Positions 9,271 through 36,790 of a stretch of 64,000 nt of DNA are shown here, one piece after another. Within the stretch, counting starts at the first letter, position 1. The number at the start of each line of letters is the position of its first letter. The notes beneath the pieces were generated by a model. It had not been told where the DNA came from. It did no database searches and saw nothing but the letters and a program-made list of their open reading frames with translations. The position numbers were made by a program, and so were the translations under genes. This DNA is from Rhodohalobacter sp. SW132. GTDB lineage: Bacteria; Bacteroidota; Rhodothermia; Balneolales; Balneolaceae. The stretch is from positions 62,001 to 126,000 of the forward strand of contig NZ_QUOK01000003.1 of assembly GCF_003390325.1 (NCBI RefSeq), written 5' to 3'.

Positions 9271-9305
9271 AATTTTTTTCGTTTAGTTAGAGTTTACAGG
9301 TTTAG

Positions 9306-9379
9306 AGATCTGATCAGATGAACAGATCTGTTTGTATATTTGCGATGTACCACGTTGCGAAGCATAAATTGTGCAACGT
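9306..9379. promoter_or_regulatory. Palindromes upstream of the oxidoreductase gene
   Basis: The 12-bp perfect palindrome ATCTGATCAGAT (9308-9319) is flanked by two direct copies of AGATCTG (9306 and 9324). A second inverted repeat ACGTTGC-N14-GCAACGT follows at 9352-9379. They lie 36-110 bp upstream of the oxidoreductase start and could be operators or a hairpin. No regulator can be named. Confidence 0.35.
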
Positions 9380-9491
9380 AGTTCTGCAGGATCAAAAAGT
9401 AGCACTGATCCTTAATTTTACAAGCTTTTGACAGCCTGCCTGTTTATCGGATAATCAACATATTCTAAAATCTTCAACACTCCGCAGAAGA

Positions 9492-10340
9492 TTATCCAAG
9501 CAGTTTTTTTATGAAAGCGAGTCCGTCTTTTGCAAGCTTATCCGGGCTCTCGGCAAGAGGACGCCAGATGGCAGCAGCTTTTGCCAGGAGCTCATTATCC
9601 GGTGAGAATGTTTCGATAATCACGTGTTTATCGTACCCAATCTCGTTAAGAGCTGATGCGATTCCGTCCCAGTCAAACTGACCAGTTCCGGGTGTTCCCC
9701 TGTCATTTTCAGCTACCTGCAGATGGTAGAGATGTTCACCTGCGGTTCGTATGGCGTCACCGAGATCTTTCTCTTCAATACCTGCGTGAAACAGGTCGAT
9801 CATCACTTTGCATGATGGGTGATCTACACGTTTAACCACATCAGTAACCTGGCTTGTCAGATTCAAAAAACTGGTTTCAAACCGGTTAAGCGCTTCCAGA
9901 CAGATTACAATATTTTTTTTCTCCGCATATTCGGCAACTTCGCGCAGCTGTGAGACAAGAAGTTTGGTCTCTTCTTCCCGTTGTTTATCATCTGATTGCC
10001 ATAGGCGTCCCACTTCAGAAGCGAGGGGTCCAACAAATAGTGTTGATCCGAGTTTTTCTGCTGCATCCAGTGAATCTTTCATATACTGTATGCCGTCATC
10101 CCGTACGGATTTATCAGGATGAATCAGATCTCTTCCACCGCCCATTGCGGCACAGGTTGTGATCGATAAACCACTATCTTCAATCGCCTTCCTGGCTCTT
10201 TCGCAATCCAGCGATGCGGGATCTTCAATCGGTAGTTCAACCGTATCAAATCCGAGTTCAGCGATTTTAGGTGCGTAGTTTTCAATTACTTCATTTGTTA
10301 CAGGAGACGTCCAAAGCCAAAGGCTGACACCAAATTTCAT
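9492..10340 (-). CDS. Sugar epimerase/isomerase of the tagatose/psicose 3-epimerase family
   Basis: A 282-residue xylose-isomerase-like TIM barrel. The four metal/catalytic positions of D-tagatose/D-psicose/L-ribulose 3-epimerases appear in order: Glu in ICLEALNRFE near residue 145, Asp in MIDLFHAGIEE near 178, His in HLQVAENDRGTPGTG near 205, and Glu in VIIETF near 239. Epimerisation at C3 of a ketose is therefore likely, although relatives also process 3-keto sugars. No signal peptide. It is co-oriented with the copper protein and oxidoreductase genes, giving a plausible sugar-processing run near araB. Confidence 0.87.
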   Translation of the reverse strand: MKFGVSLWLWTSPVTNEVIENYAPKIAELGFDTVELPIEDPASLDCERARKAIEDSGLSITTCAAMGGGRDLIHPDKSVRDDGIQYMKDSLDAAEKLGSTLFVGPLASEVGRLWQSDDKQREEETKLLVSQLREVAEYAEKKNIVICLEALNRFETSFLNLTSQVTDVVKRVDHPSCKVMIDLFHAGIEEKDLGDAIRTAGEHLYHLQVAENDRGTPGTGQFDWDGIASALNEIGYDKHVIIETFSPDNELLAKAAAIWRPLAESPDKLAKDGLAFIKKLLG

Positions 10341-26111: not shown

Positions 26112-26915
26112 CTATAAAATGGTATAGATCATGATCAGGGCAATAATAATGGCCAGGACAGAGAAAGCCACCTGCCTGCGATCCTGGGTCATTTTCTCTC
26201 CTAATTTTACTCCGAAAAACCCGCCGATGAATGCCCCGATAATCAAAGGGAACCCCGTACCAAAATCAACGAACCCAAGAGTAAAACCGGTTGCCCCGGC
26301 TACCTGCCCGGAAAGAAGTGCAAATTGAAGCCAGCCGGAGAGTGAAATCACGAGAACCGCAAGTGATGAAACACTGACCGCTTTTGAAATATTTATTTTA
26401 TAAATCAGATTCAAAACCGGAACGACCACAACCCCGCCTCCTACTCCGGCCAGTGCCGCCACAAAACCGCCTCCTAAACCAGTTACTGCCGTTTTCTTAG
26501 TCCCAATCGCTGATGTTCGTTCGGTTACAATTTTTTCCGACTTACCCCTCCTGTAAAACATCCAGGCCACAAGAATCAAAAGACATGCAAAAAAGGTGAC
26601 GAATATCTGTTCTGTATAGATCGCTGAGGTGGAAATCTGTTTACCAATAAAGACTCCTGCTGCCCCAAAAAGTCCCACTTTTATTCCCTCTCTGCCGAAC
26701 ATATTTTTCTGCTTAAGCTGCTGAATGGAACTGCTGGATGCTGCCGTAAATGTACAGAAAAGCGAGGTGCCAATTGTCCACGCTACGGGCTGCTCTACCC
26801 CAAGCGAAGTAAACAAAATAAAGAGCACGGGAGTAAAAAGTGTTCCGCCCCCAATGCCAAATACACCGGCGAGTATTCCGGTAAAAATTCCAATAACGAT
26901 AAGAAGAAGGATCAT
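26112..26915 (-). CDS. TauE/SafE (TSUP) family permease
   Basis: 267 residues with about eight membrane helices and the twin glycine-rich repeats of the family: GIFTGILAGVFGIGGGTLFTP near residue 8 and TGLGGGFVAALAGVGGGVVVVP near 145. Members move sulfite, organosulfonates or similar anions. It overlaps the PhzF-like gene by four bases (ATGA), so the two are cotranscribed. The substrate is not decidable. Confidence 0.9.
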   Translation of the reverse strand: MILLLIVIGIFTGILAGVFGIGGGTLFTPVLFILFTSLGVEQPVAWTIGTSLFCTFTAASSSSIQQLKQKNMFGREGIKVGLFGAAGVFIGKQISTSAIYTEQIFVTFFACLLILVAWMFYRRGKSEKIVTERTSAIGTKKTAVTGLGGGFVAALAGVGGGVVVVPVLNLIYKINISKAVSVSSLAVLVISLSGWLQFALLSGQVAGATGFTLGFVDFGTGFPLIIGAFIGGFFGVKLGEKMTQDRRQVAFSVLAIIIALIMIYTIL

Positions 26916-33300: not shown

Positions 33301-34809
33301 GTGTTTAGCAGACGGACTTCTTACAAACATCGGCTTGTCGCTATCGGGGATAGTATGGCACAGGGATTTAAAAACGGGGGAATCTATCGTACAGATCTCA
33401 GTTTTCCGGCCCTTCTTGCGCGAGCTTTTAAACCAAAAGTTGAATTCGAACGTCCCTCCTTCACAGCTCACACCGGTATTCCCATCAACATAGAAATGCT
33501 GGTTCGGGAAATGTCTGAAGAGTTCGGAGATGAAATTTCGTGGAATCAATACCTCAGTGCCGGAACGCATCTTTTTAAAACCCTGCGCAGAATAAAAAAT
33601 CACTGGGAAGGTCAAAACAGATCCCTTCGAGTGGAACGAAATGCACCCTATCACAACCTGTCGGTGTGGGGATTTTCACTGAGTGATACCTGGCTGATAA
33701 ATGAATCATACAGCCGGCAATTCATCGAAAATAACGCTCCCCGGTATACGGTATTCAGTGTTCTGCCGGATCATGCCATGCATATAACCGCGCGAATGGT
33801 TCTAAATCCTTCCTTTTCAGAAAAGTTTGAAGGTTATTCGATGATTGACAACGTAGAATGGCTCCAGAAAGATGGCGGAATTGAAAACCTGATCTGCTGT
33901 GTGGGACACAACAATATTGTGGGGGCAGTTACAAACCTGGAGCTCATTTACTCTGAAGAGCATGATCTGAATGCTCCGCATAATGAACGCACATGTACAG
34001 TTTTCCGTCCGGAACATTTTGAAGATGAACTTCGGATTCTGTATCAGAAAATCAGTAGAATTGGTGTAAATCGCGTGTTTTTACCCACACTTCCTTATTT
34101 GACAATCCCCCCTGCCATTCGTGGAGTAAATTCGGATAAAACGAAACCGAGAACCGGCTACTTTGACTACTACTCAAGGTTTTGGATCTGGGATGAGGAT
34201 TTTGATCCCGACAAGCATCCGCATCTTACAAAAGAGCAAGCTATTACCCTGGATCAGCATATCGATCAGTATAACGCTATCATCCTGGAACTTGCGGATG
34301 AGTTTGGATTTCATGTAGTGCCCGTTGGGCGATATGTTCAGGCAGCGGCACGCCGGCGTATGGGTGCTGAAAATGTTCGCCCGTTTCCAGAACCATTCAT
34401 TGAAGCTCTCAAAAAAAACCGTTCGACCTCCTACCTGGTTGACGAAGATGGACAACCCCGGATTTCCACCGATTACCTCAGGCTTGCGGATTCCTCAGGG
34501 AAGATTGACAGAGGTGGAATTTTTAGCCTCGACGGGCTGCATCCGTCCACTATCGGGTATGGGTTAATTGCGAATATATATAAGCAGTTTATGGAGAAAG
34601 AGGGTGTTCAATTTGATGGAAAAATAGACTGGGATTTTATCATTGAAAATGAAACCCTGGTAACCAACCCTCCACTACTGATGAATAACCTGAGACTTAT
34701 GCTTCGGTTTTTAGCATTGAGCAGAGGAGAACGATTTACAAAAATCGGGCAAAATGTACTTCAGGAGGTTCTGGAGATGTTTTCATCCAGACCCACATTA
34801 GAAAAATAG
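33301..34809 (+). CDS. SGNH/GDSL-type hydrolase
   Basis: 502 residues. Block I AIGDSMAQGF (residues 14-23) supplies the Ser nucleophile; a GHNN block near 202 may be block III; and block V FSLDGLHPSTIGYGLIAN near 410 supplies Asp and His. The large insert between blocks is unlike small GDSL lipases. No signal peptide is seen. The start is a GTG at 33301 because the next ATG lies within block I. Substrate unknown, probably an ester. A hairpin array follows 17 bp after the stop. Confidence 0.78.
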   Translation: MFSRRTSYKHRLVAIGDSMAQGFKNGGIYRTDLSFPALLARAFKPKVEFERPSFTAHTGIPINIEMLVREMSEEFGDEISWNQYLSAGTHLFKTLRRIKNHWEGQNRSLRVERNAPYHNLSVWGFSLSDTWLINESYSRQFIENNAPRYTVFSVLPDHAMHITARMVLNPSFSEKFEGYSMIDNVEWLQKDGGIENLICCVGHNNIVGAVTNLELIYSEEHDLNAPHNERTCTVFRPEHFEDELRILYQKISRIGVNRVFLPTLPYLTIPPAIRGVNSDKTKPRTGYFDYYSRFWIWDEDFDPDKHPHLTKEQAITLDQHIDQYNAIILELADEFGFHVVPVGRYVQAAARRRMGAENVRPFPEPFIEALKKNRSTSYLVDEDGQPRISTDYLRLADSSGKIDRGGIFSLDGLHPSTIGYGLIANIYKQFMEKEGVQFDGKIDWDFIIENETLVTNPPLLMNNLRLMLRFLALSRGERFTKIGQNVLQEVLEMFSSRPTLEK

Positions 34810-34825: not shown

Positions 34826-35432
34826 AGTTATGGTAATTCTGAAGATCTTGAGTCTTGCAAAACGAATCATCCATTGCGACATCAAATTTTTGGGCTGGAT
34901 TAATAAGCACGAGAAATAGCATATCTTTCCCTTTCATAACTCACGGCTTCTTAGATATGGTATTTCTGAGGATCTTGAGTCTTGCAAAACAAAACACCCA
35001 TTACGACATCAATTTTTGAACTGGATTCGTTGGCATGAGAAATACCATATCTTTCCTTTACACAACTAACAGCCTCTTAGATATGGTATTTCTGAAGATC
35101 TTGAGCCTTGCAAAACGAATCATCCATTGCGACATCTGGTTTTTGAACTGGATTCATTGGCATGAGAAATACCATATCTTTCCTTTTCATAACTCATAGC
35201 CTCTTAGATATGGTATTTCTGAAGGTCTTGAGTCTTGCAAAACGAATCATCCATTGTGACATCTGATTTTTGAACTGAATTAATTAGCATGAGAAATACC
35301 ATATCTTTCCCTTTCATAACTCATAGCCTCTTAGATATGGTATTTCTGAAATCTTGAGCCTTGCAAAACGAATCATCCATTGCGACATCAAATTTTTGGG
35401 CTGGATTAATAAGCACGAGAAATACCATATCT
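34826..35432. repeat. Five-unit tandem array of long-hairpin repeats
   Basis: Units start at 34826, 34953, 35080, 35206 and 35333, spaced 126-127 bp. Each unit begins with AGATATGGTATTTCT and ends its 100-bp core with the exact complement AGAAATACCATATCT, so it can fold on itself. A 25-bp linker (ACTCATAGCCTCTT-like) separates cores. The loop is well conserved (CTTGAGTCTTGCAAAACGAATCATCC). Unit 1 is diverged at both arms; unit 5 lacks the linker. The array lies between convergent genes and has no convincing reading frame. It is not CRISPR: no short spacers and no cas genes. Confidence 0.9.
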
Positions 35433-35452: not shown

Positions 35453-36790
35453 TCAGCGTAGAGATTCCGCCAGCTGTAGTCCGTTTTTGATGCAGTCAGG
35501 TACCGAAATTCCGCCCCGATAGTTACCGGCCAGGTGGAGTCCCTCGTGCTTTTCCTCAAGCTCATCAAACATCTGTAACACCTCTCCATATCCAACCTGA
35601 TACTGTGGTATAGCCTTGGGCCAGTAGATGTGATCTTTAAAAACAGCTTCGCCGCTGAGCCCTATCAGATCTTTTAAATCAGTCTCCGCCAGTTTTACCA
35701 GTTTTTCACTGCTCAGATTCGCTAATTTCGGCTGCCTTACCCCGCCAATAAAAACAGTTAAAAGATGGCATCCCTCAGGAGCCCGATTTTCAAACAGTGT
35801 GGATGTGAACAGTGCTCCTAAAACAGATCGATTTTCAATTTCGGGAACCAGGAAACCAAATCCATTTAACGGATGCCTTATTTGTTCTTTTTTATAACCG
35901 AGCAATAGTACTGAAATAGGCGGGTGATATACATTACGTGCCGTTTCAATCTCCAGCTTTGTAAAGGGAAAAAGTTCATCAGACCATTTATGCAGCGGGA
36001 TAGTTGAAATGATATCTGAGTAGGGTCCGAAATCTCCATTTTGGGTATGAAGATTCCAACCTTGGTCCGTTTTTCTGATACTCTTGATTTCGCAATTCAT
36101 AAAAGTGGTATCAAGGCGGGAAAAAAGGGTATCAGGCAGTTGCTGCATACCGTTTTTAAATGAGATCAATCGTCTTTTAACGGACGCTGTTTTGTTACGA
36201 TTCATCATCCGGCGAACGGCGCCCATCAGAACAGAACCAGAAGACTGTTCAAGTTCATGTAGCAGCGGAAAACTATGTTTCAATGAAAGAACGGACGGAT
36301 CACCCGCATGGATTCCGGCCACAAACGGATTTACGGCGTAATTTAGAATTTCGGTTCCAAATCGGCGCTCCACAAAATCAGCCAGCGATTCGTCATCCGG
36401 ACCGCGTGAGGGAAAAGGCTCCCCGAGCAGGCGAAATTTTGCTTTTCCTGAAAATATCGGGGTTTTGATAAATGATTTAAGTGATGTCGGCAGCGGATGC
36501 ATTTTGCCATTCCGTACTATAAATCGACGGGAAGCTTCCGGATTTGCCACACTGATTTCGTCAGTCAGTCCAAGCTCCATCAGGAACTCTTCAACTTCAG
36601 CATCTTTCAGCAAAAGAGTATTAGGTCCATATTCAAATTGCCATCCCTCCTCTTTTTGTGTCCGGATCGCTCCGCCGGCTACAGGTTTGCGATCAAATAG
36701 CTCAACTGTTTTTCCAATTATATTGAGTTTATATGCGGCAACCAGGCCTGTTATACCGGCTCCTAATACTGCTATCTTATTGTTGGCCAT
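35453..36790 (-). CDS. hemY: Protoporphyrinogen oxidase, FAD-dependent
   Basis: 445 residues. FAD is bound at the N-terminal Rossmann motif AVLGAGITGLVAAYKL followed by PVAGGAIRT. Family blocks are WQFEYGPNTLLL near 50, FGTEILNYAVNPFVAGIHAGDP near 143, and the C-terminal LAGNYRGGISVPDCIKNG. It oxidises protoporphyrinogen IX to protoporphyrin IX in haem synthesis. The enzyme is also named hemG in some annotations. It is divergent from the FecA-like receptor, sharing a region with two TTAGA-N5-TCTAA palindromes, which suggests iron-linked control. Confidence 0.93.
   Translation of the reverse strand: MANNKIAVLGAGITGLVAAYKLNIIGKTVELFDRKPVAGGAIRTQKEEGWQFEYGPNTLLLKDAEVEEFLMELGLTDEISVANPEASRRFIVRNGKMHPLPTSLKSFIKTPIFSGKAKFRLLGEPFPSRGPDDESLADFVERRFGTEILNYAVNPFVAGIHAGDPSVLSLKHSFPLLHELEQSSGSVLMGAVRRMMNRNKTASVKRRLISFKNGMQQLPDTLFSRLDTTFMNCEIKSIRKTDQGWNLHTQNGDFGPYSDIISTIPLHKWSDELFPFTKLEIETARNVYHPPISVLLLGYKKEQIRHPLNGFGFLVPEIENRSVLGALFTSTLFENRAPEGCHLLTVFIGGVRQPKLANLSSEKLVKLAETDLKDLIGLSGEAVFKDHIYWPKAIPQYQVGYGEVLQMFDELEEKHEGLHLAGNYRGGISVPDCIKNGLQLAESLR

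Follow-up and report, generated by a model that had tools for sequence, protein, structure and literature searches.

A tandem array of long-loop hairpin units in Rhodohalobacter sp. SW132 is very likely an expanded REPIN-like mobile element of an atypical RAYT

The window analysed here is a stretch of 64,000 nucleotides from Rhodohalobacter sp. SW132 (G000:C3:62001-126000, G000 being the genome under study). Between two convergent genes, coding for a GDSL-like lipase/acylhydrolase and a protoporphyrinogen oxidase, it carries an array of five tandem units at positions 34826-35432 (Table 1). The units are spaced by 126-127 bp and TRF returned a period of 127 with 4.8 copies and 88% matches, confirming the five tandem hairpins of about 126 bp described in the original prediction. 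Each unit consists of a 15-bp arm, a loop of 70-71 nt and the inverted arm, and is followed by a spacer of 26 bp. Units 2-5 carry exact copies of the arms AGATATGGTATTTCT/AGAAATACCATATCT, as had been claimed, and the arms of unit 1 are degenerate on both sides (AGTTATGGTAATTCT/AGAAATAGCATATCT, 12/15 pairs). The loop wording said to be common to units 1 and 5 corresponds to an identity of 97%, the remaining unit pairs of the array showing 79-90%, and the spacers are also conserved among themselves. Elsewhere in the window, a weak 33-bp tandem repeat of two copies (26426-26491) lies within a predicted membrane-protein ORF.

Table 1. Coordinates of the array and its flanking genes in the window.
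Feature	Position	Strand	Description
Flanking gene, GDSL-like lipase/acylhydrolase	33301..34809	+	stops 16 bp short of the array; outside the element
Unit 1	34826..34926	+	degenerate arms, 34826-34840 and 34912-34926; loop 71 nt
Spacer 1	34927..34952	.	26 bp
Unit 2	34953..35052	+	arms exact, 15 bp; loop 70 nt
Spacer 2	35053..35078	.	26 bp
Unit 3	35079..35179	+	arms exact; loop 71 nt
Spacer 3	35180..35205	.	26 bp
Unit 4	35206..35306	+	arms exact; loop 71 nt; RNA fold -25.3 kcal/mol, z -2.6
Spacer 4	35307..35332	.	26 bp
Unit 5	35333..35432	+	arms exact; loop 70 nt, 97% identical to that of unit 1
Flanking gene, protoporphyrinogen oxidase (HemG/HemY type)	35453..36790	-	convergent; 3' end 20 bp past the array; outside the element

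Several known classes of sequence were considered and rejected. A CRISPR would show one constant repeat separated by unique spacers, whereas the units are inverted pairs, and cas genes are lacking nearby. Against a coding role, the ORFs over the units are mechanical calls that change from array to array. No matches to an Rfam family or to tRNA/tmRNA were obtained, and the RYYYAAC/GTTRRRY core of integron attC sites was absent from the arms on inspection by eye.

A BLAST search of two units against their own genome returned more arrays on contigs C2, C3, C4, C5, C6 and C15, and the arms were finally located at 17 loci comprising about 60 elements, with 1 to 11 units per locus. The 15-mer arm, allowing at most one mismatch, occurred 46 times per strand genome-wide, while the reversed control occurred 0 times on one strand and once on the other, and the paired-arm pattern 46 times against 0 for the control. 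The 57 elements extracted showed a tight geometry, with 15-bp arms, a loop of 68-72 nt and a spacer mostly of 25-26 bp, and singletons and irregular unit spacing were common in the family. Loop identity averaged 79% within an array and 49% between arrays of this genome, as compared with 46% for shuffled loops. The loop being near-random between arrays, what is conserved is the arms and the length, and the conservation within the array of the window is attributed to recent tandem duplication. The strong loop conservation originally reported thus holds inside an array and is lost between arrays, and the proposal of a function residing in the loop sequence was not borne out. On contig C15 (locus L032), a unit pair with its flanks is repeated 433 bp apart (9276-9504 and 9709-9937), indicating that arrays grow by larger duplications too.

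The family extends to relatives within this group of salt-lake bacteria, many of them represented by fragmented MAGs in which repeats break the contigs. The two-arm pattern was present in 20 of the 128 genomes of the order, confined to two genera, and the reversed control gave 0 in every genome. When the exact pattern was compared with 84,980 named species genomes, 55 stretches were recovered, all in Balneolaceae records (one bearing another family name), including Rhodohalobacter halophilus, R. sulfatireducens and many MAGs. The record with the other name is a brine MAG labelled Chitinophagaceae (LKNA01000174.1, 7017-7107), whose label is probably wrong. Across the family, loop length is kept at 64-72 nt and the loop sequence diverges between arrays and species, while the arms are conserved in sequence across the two genera. 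The search for related units elsewhere that had been suggested was therefore productive, and the lack of such units, originally named among the observations that would favour a simple local duplication, is contradicted by the many units recovered and by the RAYT embedded in one array (see below).

The two arms of a unit change together. The outer four positions occur as AGAT, AGAC or AAAC, and they are the same in both arms at 67 of 75 loci, against 27 expected from a global permutation and 48 from a within-genome permutation; none of 5000 permutations reached 67. As many of the 75 loci had been found by patterns demanding that the inner eleven bases pair, positions 1-4 alone provide the fair test, and agreement there was retained at 34 of the 38 loci not selected on these positions. 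The next four nucleotides outside the arms agree at chance level (59/300). In the C15 array, adjacent units alternate between AGAC/AGAC and AGAT/AGAT, so that the matching belongs to the unit and not merely to the array. Part of the variation is shared by descent. Selection for stem pairing and copying of one arm from the other would each explain the matching; the arms would also match if both were merely copies of one repeat, a point against the mobile-element reading given below.

The original prediction stated that no transposase accompanies the array. This is correct for the vicinity; about 74 kb away, one is encoded inside another array of the same element (locus G000:C3:170353-172319). 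The 192-aa ORF, designated P0001 (G000:C3:171128-171703), lies between six upstream and five downstream units. It matched the NCBIfam model NF047646 (REP-associated tyrosine transposase) with an E value of 1e-13 and 51 bits, the curated cut-off being 80, and Pfam PF01797 (Y1_Tnp) weakly, with 20 bits against a cut-off of 23. The protein shows the motifs NHFH, WS and YIHRNP, and neither the HxH pair nor YIHxNP varies among 19 aligned relatives. An AlphaFold model (pLDDT 93) was submitted to Foldseek, and the top PDB match was 4ER8, the structure of a RAYT in complex with a REP hairpin (E 3.5e-8), IS200/IS605 transposases coming next. A profile hmmsearch of PDB sequences gave 4ER8 as sole match (E 1.6e-6), whereas phmmer with the RAYT sequence alone gave no match among them. 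P0001 is therefore a divergent RAYT, an assignment based on fold, motifs and linkage, with family scores under the curated cut-offs; it has the HUH motif, the catalytic tyrosine and, in the predicted structure, the Y1 fold that characterise a RAYT (TnpA_REP).

The association of the repeat with this enzyme recurs in other species. The nearest P0001 orthologues, sharing about 50-54% identity, occur in G048, G059, G069 and G047, and in all four the RAYT gene has the element on either side, with arms AGACATGGTATTTCT in G048, AAACATGGTATTTCT in G059, AGACATGGTATTTTT in G069 and AAACATGGTATTTCT plus AAACATGGTATGTTT in G047. In G060 a truncated orthologue at a contig edge has one element adjoining. 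The five RAYTs of G000, G048, G059, G047 and G069 form one clade (support 99/96), and these arms were found at none of the 25 other RAYT-like loci in the set, several of which have their own palindromes on both sides. The linkage of the arms to the clade gave a Fisher value of 1.2e-5, computed with 22 others and hence conservative. A full RAYT of the P0001 clade was not found in several element-bearing genomes (e.g. G042, G062, G065), an absence that weighs little because most of them are fragmented MAGs.

Individual loci differ in detail. At the RAYT locus of G047 (G047:C289:1-2061) the arms fall into two subfamilies, AAACATGGTATTTCT and AAACATGGTATGTTT, the latter being a perfect palindrome present in three tandem units. 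In G035 (locus G035:C4:96522-100112), a RAYT is preceded by arms GTTTAGTAAAGCT with a 68-nt loop (1338-1431 of the locus) and followed by identical arms whose loop is very short (about 2114-2145). In G055 (locus L113 on contig C17, 467-527 and 1188-1321), another RAYT-like gene is placed between several copies of AAAGACTTCCGAAGTCTTT, a nearly perfect palindrome that seems to form a family of its own.

These data bear on two alternative explanations of the conserved ends. A protein-binding array, with the arms as operator half-sites for instance of a nucleoid or partition protein, would account for the constant spacing and for an arm sequence conserved over two genera. However, irregular spacing and singletons are common in the family, the arm letters vary with the resident RAYT (AGACATGGTATTTTT in G069, AAACATGGTATGTTT in G047), and the RAYT suffices as partner with no need for a further gene, so that we consider such an array highly improbable. 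A MITE sharing its 15-bp inverted ends with an insertion sequence of the double-strand (DDE) type would fit in size and in its terminal inverted repeats. Nevertheless, at the 17 loci, whose neighbours were searched in part against family libraries, we noticed no DDE element bearing these ends, and the sole transposase seen flanked by these ends, in five species, is the Y1 RAYT; this origin is hardly credible.

The genomic position of the arrays was then compared with that of other gene intervals. Arrays often begin 15-100 bp downstream of stop codons, and about half of 16 loci fall between convergent genes, as compared with 19% among pairs of adjacent ORFs (binomial p 0.005), a background drawn from mechanical ORFs in the fetched regions with the array pairs themselves included. 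The convergent pair of the window, 643 bp apart in G000 with the array between, is array-free in three relatives of the genus, where the genes abut or nearly so (G076, G077) or lie ~20 bp apart (G078). A second site, that of the C15:86366 array, where a gene which we take by eye to be apolipoprotein N-acyltransferase-like converges with a large gene, is empty in the same three genomes, with 0-45 bp between the genes. For a third array (L037) and for the neighbours of the RAYT locus, no usable syntenic relative was found. Gain of the arrays in this lineage would be simpler than three losses, and mobility is indicated by presence and absence at two loci in three relatives, the flanks being too diverged for a target-site signature.

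The location between convergent genes raises a further role, secondary to mobility and not competing with it, namely that the units were co-opted as a bidirectional terminator or as a protector of mRNA 3' ends. Besides the position of about half the loci, this would agree with REPs being reported as transcription terminators and mRNA stabilisers (PMC6006769). However, two such sites are array-free in relatives, an AT-rich stem with a 70-nt loop is not terminator-like, and mere tolerance of insertions also predicts a convergent position. We regard this co-option as rather unlikely.

The array might also yield a structured small RNA family or a tandem 3'-UTR structure, the hairpin being selected as RNA. 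The long stem, the matched changes in both arms, the plus-strand RNA fold (z -2.6) and the frequent location shortly after stop codons agree with this possibility. On the other hand, the Rfam search gave no match, the minus strand folds only weakly better than shuffles (z -1.7), and from one array to another almost nothing is kept of the loop, the sole part in which a specific RNA function could reside. Moreover, an RNA role leaves the RAYT linkage and the empty sites unaccounted for, and we judge it improbable. Neither a small-RNA nor a binding-array role is needed for the units; among the functions originally proposed, a template for amplification came nearest to the outcome.

The whole of the evidence strongly favours the view that the units represent a non-autonomous mobile element, REPIN-like and of the atypical kind (subclass 2.6-like) that goes with Bacteroidetes RAYTs, tandemly expanded at this locus. 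It would be an unusual extension of the REPIN class of bacterial mini-transposons. The element, which carries no gene and measures about 100 nt in all, is very probably copied around by the single-strand transposase encoded within another array of the same repeat. A unit would consist of two inverted copies of a short imperfect palindrome, AGAAATACCATRTCT, with a linker between them that is constant in length and free in sequence, and its ends may pair when the DNA becomes single-stranded. The RAYT (HUH/Y1 transposase), encoded elsewhere, would bind these ends, cleave and re-join them, thereby seeding copies into intergenic DNA, often between convergent genes where little harm would result. 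A seeded element with about 26 bp of flank might then be multiplied in tandem, presumably by recombination or slippage, to give the five-unit array.

It can also be proposed, tentatively and with some doubt, that a change of repeat form took place in a single RAYT lineage, in which one hairpin with a short loop (G018, G010, G075) gave way to a doublet lacking the guide and having a fixed linker of 64-72 nt. The doublet side of this putative switch comprises the genus studied here and Rhodohalobacter, and in G035 a single arm sequence occurs in both forms next to the RAYT. If the switch occurred, these RAYTs would do without a GTAG guide in recognising a pair of 15-bp ends, and arm identity may be maintained by copying through the hairpin.

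The REPIN described by Bertels and Rainey is an inverted REP doublet with conserved ends and a diverse spacer whose length matters; REPINs also form tandem clusters that include their flanks, and clusters occur beside the cognate RAYT (PMC3116915; also PMC8049555). Features by which a REPIN is recognised were found here: an inverted doublet with diverse spacer and the capacity to fold into a hairpin, a dispersed intergenic multi-copy family, a RAYT flanked by the repeat and, as presence or absence at two loci, a gain of copies between related genomes. As in Pseudomonas fluorescens SBW25 (PMC3116915), the ends are inverted and conserved, the length is fixed, the spacer is diverse, the location is intergenic, changes are compensatory, and ordered tandem clusters with flanks occur, one of them adjoining the cognate RAYT. 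Unlike the SBW25 REPIN, the ends are 15-bp arms that lack GT[AG]G and are only weakly palindromic in themselves, there are about 60 copies instead of hundreds, and a larger share lies in tandem arrays. Arm self-complementarity extends to 10/15 positions in the two main arm types, 12/15 in one variant and 8/15 in two. The guide GT[AG]G, which in a canonical REP stands at the 5' foot of the hairpin, occurred at one of the 292 outer sites and at none of the 292 inner ones, and the element is therefore called a REPIN-like variant and not a canonical REP.

The array resembles the E. coli BIME in its tandem alternating inverted repeats, with long and short linkers in alternation (here about 70 and 26 bp). 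E. coli REPs, however, form strong hairpins that bear a GTAG tag and fall into y and z types (PMC8266576), whereas here both arms have one sequence. TIRYT/TIR repeats (PMC3733652) likewise comprise a Y1 transposase between inverted repeats and a moderately abundant genomic family with dimers or clusters, but the TIRs flank the transposase gene itself, belong mostly to subclass 2.1 and bear a GGGGWSAS motif, whereas here complete doublets lie on both sides of the gene.

Among the open-licence texts searched, no paper linked REP repeats with Balneola, and those mentioning Balneolaceae and transposase were unrelated; an earlier description elsewhere is possible. According to Quentin et al. (PMC6006769), the TnpA_REP of subclass 2.6 (Bertels group 5) are mostly from Bacteroidetes, are without the GT[AG]G guide, carry the motifs NH[LIV]H, WQ and YIH[QN]NP and are flanked by weaker 'atypical secondary structures' with copies elsewhere in the genome. 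The main text gives neither sequence nor anatomy for the 2.6 repeats, and in it neither 'Balneol' nor the long-loop form occurs. The system described here shares with subclass 2.6, as presented there, a RAYT with NH-x-H and YIH-x-NP and guide-less repeats. The NHFH, WS and YIHRNP of P0001 are close but not identical to the motifs printed for the subclass, and for this reason the protein is filed as no more than 2.6-like. For guide-less repeats of a kind previously recorded only as 'atypical' beside Bacteroidetes-type RAYTs, the present data supply the anatomy, a probable cognate enzyme, the host range and empty sites, and the naturally differing RAYT/repeat pairs offer a direct test bed for recognition without the GTAG guide.
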